The position numbers were made by a program, and so were the translations under genes. A stretch of 33,605 bases of DNA, from assembly GCA_017619375.1 (NCBI GenBank), contig JAFZSL010000012.1, positions 1 to 33,605 of the forward strand. The letters run 5' to 3'. This document shows positions 12,348 to 33,605 of this stretch, piece after piece. Every line of letters starts with the position of its first letter. Position 1 is the stretch's first letter. This DNA comes from Prevotella sp. Its GTDB lineage: Bacteria; Bacteroidota; Bacteroidia; Bacteroidales; Bacteroidaceae. The notes under the pieces were generated by a model. It was given only the letters and a program-made list of their open reading frames with translations. It was not told the origin of the DNA and made no database searches.

Positions 12348-12520
12348 TCATCCCACCCCTCCGACTGGTCCGCCGACTCCAATCCTTTCGCCGACTCTGA
12401 CCCCTCTGACCCCTCCGACGGCTTCAATCATTCCGCCGACTCTGACCCCTCCGACGGCTCCGACCACCCCAACGATTCCGACCATTTCGACGACTCCGAC
12501 ATCTCCGATTTCTCCGAAAA
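12348..12520. repeat. Degenerate TCCGAC-rich low-complexity tract
   Basis: About 170 bp of C/T-rich sequence is built from degenerate units such as CTCCGAC, TCTGACCCC and GATTCCGAC. It includes an exact 17-nt direct repeat CGCCGACTCTGACCCCT at 12389-12405 and 12434-12450. Plus- and minus-strand open frames across it give only Pro/Thr-rich or Gly/Val-rich repeats and look non-coding. A shorter related tract follows the rplQ terminator. The function is unknown to me. Confidence 0.75.
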
Positions 12521-31233: not shown

Positions 31234-32037
31234 ATGAAAAGGTTATTTATTTACATCGCATGTGCAGCCTTGTTGCTTACCGGCTGCGGCACTTATACCG
31301 GTACGGGCGCTTTCACCGGTGCTCATTTCGGCTCCATCCTCGGCTCTGCCATAGGAGGCATCACGGGCGGCTATAGGGGTAGCGACGTGGGCACCATCAT
31401 CGGCATGGCCGGTGGCGCTGTCGTGGGTGCTGCCATAGGCAGTGCGGCCGACGAAGCCAATCGTCGCGAGGTGCATGAGCGTTACGAGCAGGTGCAACGT
31501 AACAAGCGGCAGCAAAACTATCCCGACAGGCGTTATGACGACCAAGGCTACTTCGACCCTTCTGGCTCGGGCGACGACAGGCTTTACGACTTCAACGGCT
31601 CCGACTACACGGGCGACTACTCTGCCTCCAGCGCAAGGGTGATGGCTCCTGGTGCATCGAGCATTGAAGAAATCAGCACCGGCTATTCGGTGAACAACAA
31701 GATCGAGGTGCGCAATCCCCGGTTCGTGGATGACAACCGCGACGGATTCATCAACTCCAACGAGGTGAGCAAGGTCATCTTCGAGGTGTACAACAATTCC
31801 GACCAGATGCTCTATGACCTGCAACCCATCGTGGTGGAGTCATCGGGAGTGAAAAACCTCTATATCTCGCCCACCATCCATGTCGAGCACCTCGCTCCGG
31901 GAAAAGGCATACGCTACACCGCCATGGTGAAGACGGGAAGGGTGAAAGACGGAAACGCCACCTTCTGCCTGTCTGTGCTACAGGGAAACCGCGTGATGTC
32001 GAACGTCACGGAGTTCACTGTCAGGACAAGAAGATGA
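31234..32037 (+). CDS. Glycine-zipper lipoprotein with an EF-hand-like loop
   Basis: This is a predicted 267-residue envelope lipoprotein of unknown function. A signal peptide ends in lipobox L-T-G-C with lipidated C18. Residues about 21-71 form a glycine-zipper region with repeated small-residue spacing (GSILGSAIGGITGGYRGS, GMAGGAVVGAAIGS), as in membrane-inserting Gly-zipper proteins. A charged, Tyr- and Asp-rich linker (about 72-130) follows. Residues 166-177 (DDNRDGFINSNE) fit the EF-hand loop pattern, with D166, N168, D170, G171, N174 and E177 as likely calcium ligands or turn. The C-terminal part (about 178-267) looks beta-rich. I chose ATG 31234 because it gives the signal peptide start. 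It is monocistronic, with its own promoter and a palindromic terminator. Confidence 0.85.
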   Translation: MKRLFIYIACAALLLTGCGTYTGTGAFTGAHFGSILGSAIGGITGGYRGSDVGTIIGMAGGAVVGAAIGSAADEANRREVHERYEQVQRNKRQQNYPDRRYDDQGYFDPSGSGDDRLYDFNGSDYTGDYSASSARVMAPGASSIEEISTGYSVNNKIEVRNPRFVDDNRDGFINSNEVSKVIFEVYNNSDQMLYDLQPIVVESSGVKNLYISPTIHVEHLAPGKGIRYTAMVKTGRVKDGNATFCLSVLQGNRVMSNVTEFTVRTRR

Positions 32038-32059
32038 ATTGAAAGACGCGTCAATCTGG

Positions 32060-32107
32060 AACAACCAAGAGGTCATGGAAATCGATTTCCATGACCTCTT
32101 GGTTGTT
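32060..32107. terminator. 48-bp perfect palindrome, probable bidirectional terminator
   Basis: The inverted repeat has 24 perfectly matched base pairs centred on ATCGAT (centre between 32083 and 32084). It lies between two convergent genes, 23 nt after the lipoprotein stop and 28 nt before the minus-strand stop. The plus-strand 3' flank TTGTTTGT gives a weak T-rich tail. A shared terminator is the simplest explanation. The arm length is far above normal. Confidence 0.75.
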
Positions 32108-32134
32108 TGTGGGAGATGATAGGAGTATAGGAGG

Positions 32135-33160
32135 TTATTGTTCCTCTTTCACTGCCACGCATTCCATTTCCACAAGCCACTCCGGGCGGCACACCTTGCC
32201 TTGGAGCAACACGTGGGGAGTGGTGGGGTAGGCCTTGCTGAGGAATGCCTCCACCAGTTCACGGTCGGAGGGGTCTCTGAGGTATACCAGGAAATATCTG
32301 ACATCTCTCATCGTGGAGCCTCCGTCGTGCAGGAGGGCTCCAATGTTTTCCAACAGGCGTGCCGTCTGGCGCTGGATGTCGCCTACATACATGGCCTTGC
32401 CGTGCTTGTCGATGCTTGCCGTGCCGGAGATGAAGATGGTCTGCTTGCCGTCCAAATCAAGGCGTGTGCCGCGCTCGAAGGATACACCGTATTCGTGTGT
32501 GGGGTTCAGGTTGTCGAGCGCATGAAGGTATTTCATATCCGTTTCTTTCACTTCCGGGTAGGTGAGGAAGTCGATGGCAACGGATGCACTGCGCGTCTGC
32601 GAGAAGCCACCGATGCCGGTGCTGGCGATGAAATGGGTCTCCGGGGTGAGCCCTTGGTTGCGGAAGATGTCGTTGCGGGCACGCACCATCCCTTCGTAAT
32701 TCACGTCGATGTCTGCCACGTAAATCCATGTCCTCACGCAGTGCTCCTTCAGCGTCAATCCCTTCTCCTTCATCTTGTCCAGGTATTTGTTGAAGATGAG
32801 CATTGTCTGGATGTAGGAATTGGCTCCTCGTGTCTCTTCCTCGCTCAGGCGGATGCTGTCAAGTATGAAGTTGTCGCTGCTGTCCGAAGTCTTCACCAAG
32901 ATGGTGATTTTCGAGCCGTCGAGTGGCGGCTGCTCAATGATGGAGCAGGCAGCCTTGCTGAGGATGGATTGGTAGAGTGTGGAGGTGACGAGGTCGTCGT
33001 ATTGGTTTTGCGCATCGCTGAGAAACACCTTGGTGAGTTGGAGGTGGCGGCCGGCCGACTGCTCCTCTTCCAAATAGGTGGAAAGGGTGAGGTAAAGCTC
33101 ACCCAAGCGGTTTGCAAACCGCTCTCTTCCCTTCGGTGCGATGATAGTGTATTTGTCCAT
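32135..33160 (-). CDS. Rid/YjgF-superfamily protein, possibly chorismatase-like
   Basis: This 341-residue protein has a clear C-terminal Rid/YjgF-type domain (about residues 225-340; TIFISGTASIDKHGKAMYVGD, then VRYFLVYLRDPSD). Two weaker Rid-like segments are visible before it: QLTKVFLSDAQNQ near 41-53 and CVRTWIYVADIDVNYEGMVRARNDIF near 141-166. It may thus be a three-module internal pseudo-trimer, as in chorismatases of the FkbO/Hyg5 type, which are of similar size. The canonical RidA arginine (in P-A-R-S) is not seen at the equivalent PHVL position, so ordinary imine deaminase activity is doubtful. I chose ATG 33160 (MDKYTIIAPKG) because a perfect promoter lies just upstream of it; the longer frame from 33235 would start upstream of that promoter. 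No signal peptide is present. The substrate is unknown. Confidence 0.75.
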   Translation of the reverse strand: MDKYTIIAPKGRERFANRLGELYLTLSTYLEEEQSAGRHLQLTKVFLSDAQNQYDDLVTSTLYQSILSKAACSIIEQPPLDGSKITILVKTSDSSDNFILDSIRLSEEETRGANSYIQTMLIFNKYLDKMKEKGLTLKEHCVRTWIYVADIDVNYEGMVRARNDIFRNQGLTPETHFIASTGIGGFSQTRSASVAIDFLTYPEVKETDMKYLHALDNLNPTHEYGVSFERGTRLDLDGKQTIFISGTASIDKHGKAMYVGDIQRQTARLLENIGALLHDGGSTMRDVRYFLVYLRDPSDRELVEAFLSKAYPTTPHVLLQGKVCRPEWLVEMECVAVKEEQ

Positions 33161-33200
33161 TATAATTTGCGACTTGTGGCGTGATTTTGCTTTTGGTCTA

Positions 33201-33231
33201 CAAAGGTAATGAAAACCGAGTGCAATGCAAA
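33201..33231 (-). promoter_or_regulatory. Promoter of the Rid-like gene, proximal copy
   Basis: On the minus strand, TTTG (33231-33228), a 19-nt spacer and TACCTTTG (33208-33201) form an exact Bacteroidota promoter. Transcription would start near 33194, about 35 nt before the ATG at 33160. An imperfect 14-bp inverted repeat (33223-33259) overlaps the -33 element and could be an operator. Confidence 0.8.
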
Positions 33232-33264
33232 GCAAAAGACGAAGTTTTTGCTTTCATTGCCGAG
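33201..33264. repeat. 64-bp direct repeat, copy 1
   Basis: These 64 bases recur without mismatch at 33289-33352. The unit contains a complete minus-strand promoter and an inverted repeat (CAATG-C-AAAGCAAAA with TTTTGCTTT-CATTG, one bulged C). The copies are 24 nt apart, giving an 88-bp period. Confidence 0.95.
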
Positions 33265-33288
33265 GAGCATCTTATCTTCGCCGTCAGG

Positions 33289-33319
33289 CAAAGGTAATGA
33301 AAACCGAGTGCAATGCAAA
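33289..33319 (-). promoter_or_regulatory. Promoter of the Rid-like gene, distal copy
   Basis: The second repeat copy carries the same TTTG (33319-33316), 19-nt spacer and TACCTTTG (33296-33289) on the minus strand. It would produce a leader about 88 nt longer that runs through the inverted repeat of copy 1. Confidence 0.7.
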
Positions 33320-33352
33320 GCAAAAGACGAAGTTTTTGCTTTCATTGCCGAG
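33289..33352. repeat. 64-bp direct repeat, copy 2
   Basis: This copy is identical to 33201-33264, including the promoter and the inverted repeat. The flanking bases differ, so the duplicated unit has sharp ends at CAAAGGTAATG and GCCGAG. Confidence 0.95.
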
Positions 33353-33592
33353 TAACGAATTGGGCGACATACAAAATGAAACCCCGAATAACTGTTTTTC
33401 CAAGCCTTTGGCTTGGATGAATCACAACCACCCCGCCCCCTCCTTGAAGTCCTAAGGAGGGGTACCTGCCCTCCCCCCGTCCCCCTCCCGACATCGGGAG
33501 GAGGCTCAACCGCACCTACGCGGTGATCGTTCATTAAGGTACTGCTCCCTTAAAAGCGGTCGCTGTGATTTTTTACGCAACAAAGTTGCGAT
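33353..33592. other. Non-coding C-rich region with a series of hairpins
   Basis: No credible gene is seen. The region holds four or five inverted repeats in a row: CCAAGCC/GGCTTGG (33400-33416, loop TTT), CCCCTCCTT/AAGGAGGGG (33437-33462, loop 8 nt), CCTCCCG/CGGGAGG (33484-33501, loop ACAT), ACCGC/GCGGT near 33509-33524 and CGCAAC/GTTGCG (33576-33590, loop AAA). The stretch 33431-33490 is strongly C-biased. Such a set of short palindromes resembles an intergenic repeat of REP type, but I see only one copy. Confidence 0.55.
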
Positions 33593-33600
33593 TACCTTTG
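33593..33600 (+). promoter_or_regulatory. Plus-strand -7 promoter element at the window edge
   Basis: TACCTTTG matches TAnnTTTG and would drive a gene beyond the right end, divergent from the Rid-like gene. The 10-mer ATTACCTTTG is the same as in both minus-strand repeat copies. No good TTTG is found about 19 nt upstream; the hairpin CGCAAC/GTTGCG lies directly before it. Confidence 0.5.
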
Positions 33601-33605
33601 TTCGC

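Follow-up and report, generated by a model that had tools for sequence, protein, structure and literature searches.

Promoters that move, and repeats that carry promoters, have been described in several forms. Putative mobile promoters, reportedly described by Matus-Garcia et al. in 2012, are short repeated promoter sequences that lie before unrelated genes of one genome. The Frpo promoter of the F plasmid is said to allow transcription of single-stranded DNA. The BrickBuilt MITE of Porphyromonas gingivalis and P. gulae is built of 23-nt units without spacers, has a separate leader and tail, and ends in small inverted repeats (12-bp TIRs, perfect in one copy) (PMC4596501). The same source gives four-base target duplications, a bidirectional arrangement, distances of 49-591 nt from coding sequences, and reported promoter activity (PMC4596501). 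REP sequences and REPINs, which are moved by RAYT, are present in many copies, form an imperfect hairpin, and are non-coding (PMC8049555).

We analyzed 33,605 bp of Prevotella DNA (the window), which is the whole of contig C25 in a 4.26-Mb draft genome of 78 contigs. Near its right end, upstream of a minus-strand gene, is what we regard as probably a two-unit array of a dispersed, promoter-bearing palindromic repeat, a MITE-like mobile promoter that spreads by copying. Like the putative mobile promoters, it consists of short repeated promoters before unrelated genes. However, it differs from them in its nested palindrome, covarying stems, and tandem arrays, and in its host range, which takes in many species of a single genus and some further genera of the order. 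Conjugative plasmids also place promoter boxes in a fold-back strand, in their Frpo-type single-stranded promoters, whereas here the copies are multiple, on chromosomal draft contigs, and before housekeeping genes. With BrickBuilt, the repeat shares Bacteroidales hosts, intergenic positions, tandem units, filled and empty sites, and changes in copy number. In contrast to BrickBuilt, its units are 73-94 nt long, are themselves predicted promoters, point in one direction, and lie a median of 31 nt from the start codon. It resembles REP sequences and REPINs in being non-coding, in its many copies, and in its imperfect hairpin, but the genome is without a Y1/RAYT gene and the copies sit at promoters in one orientation. 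Our literature search, which was partial in coverage, found no description of this repeat.

A repeat search placed the gene-proximal copy of a 64-bp core, holding the inner stem-loop and promoter, at 33201-33264 and the upstream copy at 33289-33352, both on the minus strand. They are 100% identical and start 88 bp apart, and each carries the promoter TTTG-N19-TACCTTTG on that strand (33201-33231 and 33289-33319). The Bacteroidota consensus is TTTG at -33 and TAnnTTTG at -7 (PMC7366714). TTTG-N19-TAnnTTTG matches four times in the window, two of the matches being these copies, against a mean of 0.06 over 100 shuffles. By pattern search, the -7 box TACCTTTG is at 33201-33208 in the proximal copy and at 33289-33296 in the second. 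Both are intact, and both promoters could be active. Pattern search and a DNA fold put the -33 TTTG (33228-33231 and 33316-33319), its G bulged, in the 3' arm of an inner palindrome with 15-bp arms, an 8-nt loop, and one bulge (33222-33260 and 33310-33348; supported by the DNA fold and by covariation over 56 units).

Neither copy ends where the 64-bp identity does. We aligned 56 units and built a covariance model (R1), which matched the proximal copy with 100.9 bits over 33199-33287 and the upstream copy with 89.2 bits over 33287-33375. The full unit extends about 24 nt upstream beyond the core, and the 24-nt junction between the cores (33265-33288, minus strand) is the 5' part of the proximal unit. 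This junction includes the outer arm CGAAGATAA (33272-33280, minus strand), which complements the -7 region apart from a single mismatch and a single G.T but lies outside the predicted fold in the window. In the proximal unit the outer and middle arms are partly decayed, and the fold is the inner stem only. Terminal inverted repeats, as in a MITE, are present but imperfect, and are partly decayed in the window. The identity looks 64 bp long because of what lies next to the copies: another dispersed repeat (33353-33605) beside the upstream one and the gene's own leader beside the downstream one. The two identical 64-bp units 88 bp apart, each with a promoter, that an earlier note on this DNA described were found exactly as stated. 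Its inverted repeat does overlap the -33 box, but the 14 bp given for it was too short, as the arms have 15 bp with one bulged base. Its reading of sharp 64-bp ends as the boundaries of the repeat was wrong for the family. Elsewhere, the window holds a tandem repeat with a 45-bp unit and a 9-bp sub-period (12355-12508; TRF).

The gene downstream (32135-33160, minus strand) encodes a 341-amino-acid protein with a C-terminal Rid (Ribonuc_L-PSP) domain by Pfam (PF01042); Rid-related NCBIfam matches were below cut-off. The Rid domain matches only about the C-terminal third of the protein, and the best NCBIfam match, also below cut-off, is to the FkbO/Hyg5 chorismatase family. Its ATG is 40 nt past the proximal -7 box, and its nearest orthologues are in rumen Prevotella assemblies. 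Of the 36 orthologous rid loci, 16 gave an R1 match (E ≤ 1e-3). A single unit, against two in the window, precedes each of the two closest orthologues, and in one of them it has another stem.

The repeat that abuts the upstream unit, which we call the cap, is a separate dispersed element of about 310 bp when complete. In the window (33353-33605, minus strand) it ends in CAATTCGTTA directly at the first unit and runs into the contig end. It has G-rich palindromes (CTCCCGATGTCGGGAG, CCTCCTTAGGAC..AAGGAGG) and occurs at 11 places in the genome, the window included, over at least 150 nt at 91-100% identity. Several contigs begin or end in it. The cap accounts for where the 64-bp identity stops on the left in the window, and probably also for the contig end. 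At 7 of the 9 places in this genome where its right end was found, that end meets a unit directly (one cut by a contig end), the exceptions being on contigs C18 and C37. The same junction occurs in other genomes as well, twice in G019 and once in G179, and probably in G065, where the contig ends 8 nt on (all read by eye). We considered the cap as an essential mover of the units. However, its right 78 nt matched in only 3 of 100 genus genomes, including this one, so the units spread without it. At the window, the composite of cap and units would supply the promoter of the Rid-family gene. In the genome as a whole, 8 of the 156 contig ends are within 300 nt of a unit, where a simple estimate expects about 1 or 2. 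This suggests that arrays tend to break the assembly, and for that reason a count of exactly two units in the window is not beyond doubt.

The unit is abundant in its own genome. Searched by itself, the 64-mer matched 60 times at E ≤ 10; R1 gave at least 123 at E ≤ 0.1 and at least 100 at E ≤ 1e-3 (150 of 2,197 candidates scored). These searches bear out the suggestion in the earlier note that this is a multicopy promoter module. We grouped 100 units into 68 arrays: 49 singles, 10 pairs, 6 triples, 2 arrays of four, and 1 of five. The period within arrays is 74-90 nt here and 73-94 nt in other genomes. An open reading frame starts within 100 nt in the promoter direction at 56 of the 68 arrays (51 within 60 nt), compared with 9 (7 within 60 nt) in the reverse direction, and the median distance from unit to start codon is 31 nt. 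For five arrays the start is more than 120 nt away, and for two, one of them at a contig end, none was found. Ten downstream proteins, examined with Pfam, are Lon, MutS, a member of the rRNA adenine dimethylase family, a DnaX-like clamp loader, two ABC proteins, a cyclophilin, a Na/H exchanger, a GH43 protein, and one without a match. Among these ten there is no obvious regulon. The repeat therefore places near-identical promoter copies before unrelated genes, as a mobile promoter does. A sister promoter repeat (CTCGGTTTTGATAAAAACCTCACGCTCGAAAAAGC..GCTTTTTACTCACTAATTCGGTTTTTTGCACTATCTTTG) with its own stem combines with the unit at loci L015, L016, L163, L167, and L175. Short tandem modules (GCGTGATTTTGGCT.CGCCGAAAGTACTC) at L171 and L181, upstream of dnaX, resemble units cut down to the -7 palindrome alone.

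We extended the analysis to related genomes. R1 matched 51 of 60 genus genomes, including this one, at E ≤ 1e-5, and the number of matches in each ranged from 1 to 71; these counts are lower bounds, since at most 73 candidates were scored per genome under stricter filters. The other nine were negative at that threshold, and one of them is a single contig. A draw of 119 genomes from the order, including this one, gave a match in 8 of the 118 others and none in 110. The eight all have different family labels, and six of them hold at least 4 to 34 copies (at most 36 scored). Their arrays keep the layout but have other stems. At L130:857-1022, in another genus, a unit lies just upstream of a tRNA-Arg gene as its apparent promoter. 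We also considered carriage by phages. An exact 14-mer of the unit occurs in 59 viral contigs, but a search of 515 kb of them with the covariance model gave no unit at E ≤ 0.01, and the idea was set aside.

The complete unit, about 73-94 bp long, is a nested imperfect palindrome with three stems, and its right end is the -7 box. Its right half is a complete -33/-7 promoter. Upstream of a CTCGG motif is a conserved block, CGAAGRTAGG.TGC.CC, whose sequence, inverted and complemented, is that of the -7 region of the same unit. The outer stem pairs this block with the -7 box, which is its 3' arm. The middle stem has three bases per side (ACC/GGT, GCC/GGC, and so on), and the inner stem has 15 pairs, with the -33 TTTG in its 3' arm. 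The bulged G of that box is without a partner in 53 of 56 aligned units.

To assess this structure we used alignment A1, which was gathered by sequence (BLAST and then a profile HMM) without reference to structure, the structure being read from the same sequences. Over the 27 pairs of the three helices, 84.6% of cells were paired, compared with 72.4% in shuffles and 43-52% on sliding. Double-changed cells numbered 202, spread over 20 pairs, against 71.5 in shuffles, and none of 500 shuffles was as high. The inner stem alone had 93.4% of cells paired. The outer helix was the weakest (70.6% over all rows, with double changes in 6 of 9 pairs), in part because the outer arm is missing from units preceded by the cap or by host sequence. 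Among the 62 units whose outer arm could be located, 40 have an arm that complements their own -7 box at its two variable bases; 2,000 shuffles gave a mean of 17 and a maximum of 27. We rejected the alternative that the outer arm pairs with the preceding -7 box: of 10 units in which the boxes differ, 7 matched their own, 2 the preceding one, and 1 neither. Eighteen units from other Bacteroidales genera, aligned with MAFFT, folded unprompted into the same middle and inner stems with double changes in 8 of 9 pairs, though they had been found with R1 and are not fully independent. Against shuffles their mean z was -2.8, and z was below -1 in 16 of the 18. RNAalifold did not call the outer stem in this set (A4); several single-sequence folds show it.

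A structured RNA should favor G.U pairs. Departures from pairing in the inner stem were G.T in 12 cells and A.C in 11, which suggests that the dyad probably acts as DNA and not as RNA. Over all pairs except 9-110, set aside because the -7 TTTG fixes one side of it, the counts were 54 G.T and 57 A.C (79 and 57 with that pair). The idea of an RNA element was dropped on this lack of a G.T excess in the inner stem and on the lack of any Rfam match above gathering score. The two Rfam matches that 31900-33605 gave at E ≤ 1 lie outside the repeat and fall far short of the gathering score.

Comparison of relatives shows that the presence and number of the units differ between them. In this genome, mutS is preceded by a truncated cap and two units; in two relatives a plain promoter takes their place, and the sequence aligns on both flanks. 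In this genome 228 nt separate landmarks that are 9 nt apart in both relatives. This is the only clean filled and empty site; at other genes, the relatives have different units or promoters that have diverged. We saw no target-site duplication at this sole site, where the truncated cap leaves the ends of the moved element undefined. Copy number also varies between species, with one genome per species, read by eye. Before lon there are five units in this genome, at least four in G179 (at a contig end), and one in G065. The counts before ksgA are one, one, and two, with none in G009. The cyclophilin gene has one unit in this genome, none in G179 and G009, and a degenerate promoter in G065. Over the 13 loci compared, the best paralogue in this genome came closer than any sequence at the orthologous place in 9, tied in 1, and lay farther in 3; the comparison favors paralogues, being the best of 24 against 1 or 2 orthologous places, some without a unit. 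The homogenization or recent duplication suggested by the earlier note agrees with this greater likeness within the genome. We also considered a RAYT/REPIN system, but the genome, which is 99.98% complete, had no match to a Y1 transposase (PF01797), whereas 5 of 14 control genomes did. With no target duplication at the one site examined and no transposase tied to the repeat, we have not filed it as a MITE.

The position of a unit within its array matters. The -7 box matched TAnnTTTG in 61 of 67 gene-proximal and 24 of 33 internal units of this genome (Fisher p = 0.033) and in 36 of 36 proximal and 6 of 21 internal units of other genomes (Fisher p = 2.5e-9), although related copies are not independent in these tests. 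In other genomes, the 50 matches taken without 7 further units gave 36 of 38 proximal and 3 of 12 internal. This suggests that the last unit is the promoter and the others often are not, and it makes stacked promoters or an expression switch set by copy number, which the earlier note had proposed, doubtful. Judging from its position, orientation, and intact -7 box, the gene-proximal unit would be the promoter of whatever gene follows. The family would spread by placing copies on the upstream side of existing promoters, accompanied by the cap or not; the filled and empty site at mutS is the one case observed. Arrays may then grow and shrink in place as direct repeats, by recombination or slippage, which would account for the copy numbers that differ between species. 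The palindrome, as DNA, would most likely be a fold-back substrate or a signal for this copying.

A stronger version of this proposal, which we hold only tentatively, is a mobile element defined by its fold. A nested palindrome with a full promoter in its right half would land on the -7 boxes of other promoters, replace promoters, and pile up in tandem, and it would have spread through several Bacteroidales families with full turnover of its stems. Internal copies would lose promoter function yet stay, so that the element would ride on promoters without being kept only for them. The same persistence of internal units with broken -7 boxes counts against a selected regulatory structure, in which a cruciform or fold-back strand makes the promoter boxes double-stranded, tunes their opening with supercoiling or allows transcription of single-stranded DNA, and spreads only secondarily. 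Such a role would fit the location of both boxes in the arms of nested stems, an architecture kept across families of the order despite unrelated stem sequence, and an inner stem without RNA-strand bias. However, the proximal unit in the window folds at the inner stem only, and the structure is evidently not needed at the rid loci without a match or in the nine negative genus genomes. We therefore regard this explanation as unlikely.

The units could also be ordinary promoters whose quasi-palindromes were perfected by replication strand switching and spread by gene conversion, with no element and no function. The symmetric departures in the inner stem agree with this, and gene conversion could explain the likeness of paralogues. 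However, perfecting should remove the bulged G of the -33 box, which nearly all aligned units leave unpaired, and the difference at mutS is a gain and not a tract of equal length, so we give this account little credence. Least probable is an operator array, with a dimeric repressor bound to the inverted repeat and the degree of repression set by the length of the array. In its favor, tandem operators occur commonly, and the palindrome does overlap the -33 box. But stems of quite different sequence, with conserved pairing, stand side by side in one genome and even in one array (L012), which argues against one repressor, and the ten downstream proteins form no obvious regulon. The repressor operator that the earlier note proposed to test for in the inverted repeat is not supported, given the differing stems.

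If the repeat is indeed a mobile promoter that spreads by copying, then one may ask why the arms of a covarying palindrome should contain the -33 and -7 boxes. Such a repeat would help to explain contig breaks in draft genomes of this group. It would also be a ready source of new promoters and of copy number variation, and would mean that, in a major group of gut and rumen bacteria, a proliferating DNA repeat is replacing the core promoters of housekeeping genes.
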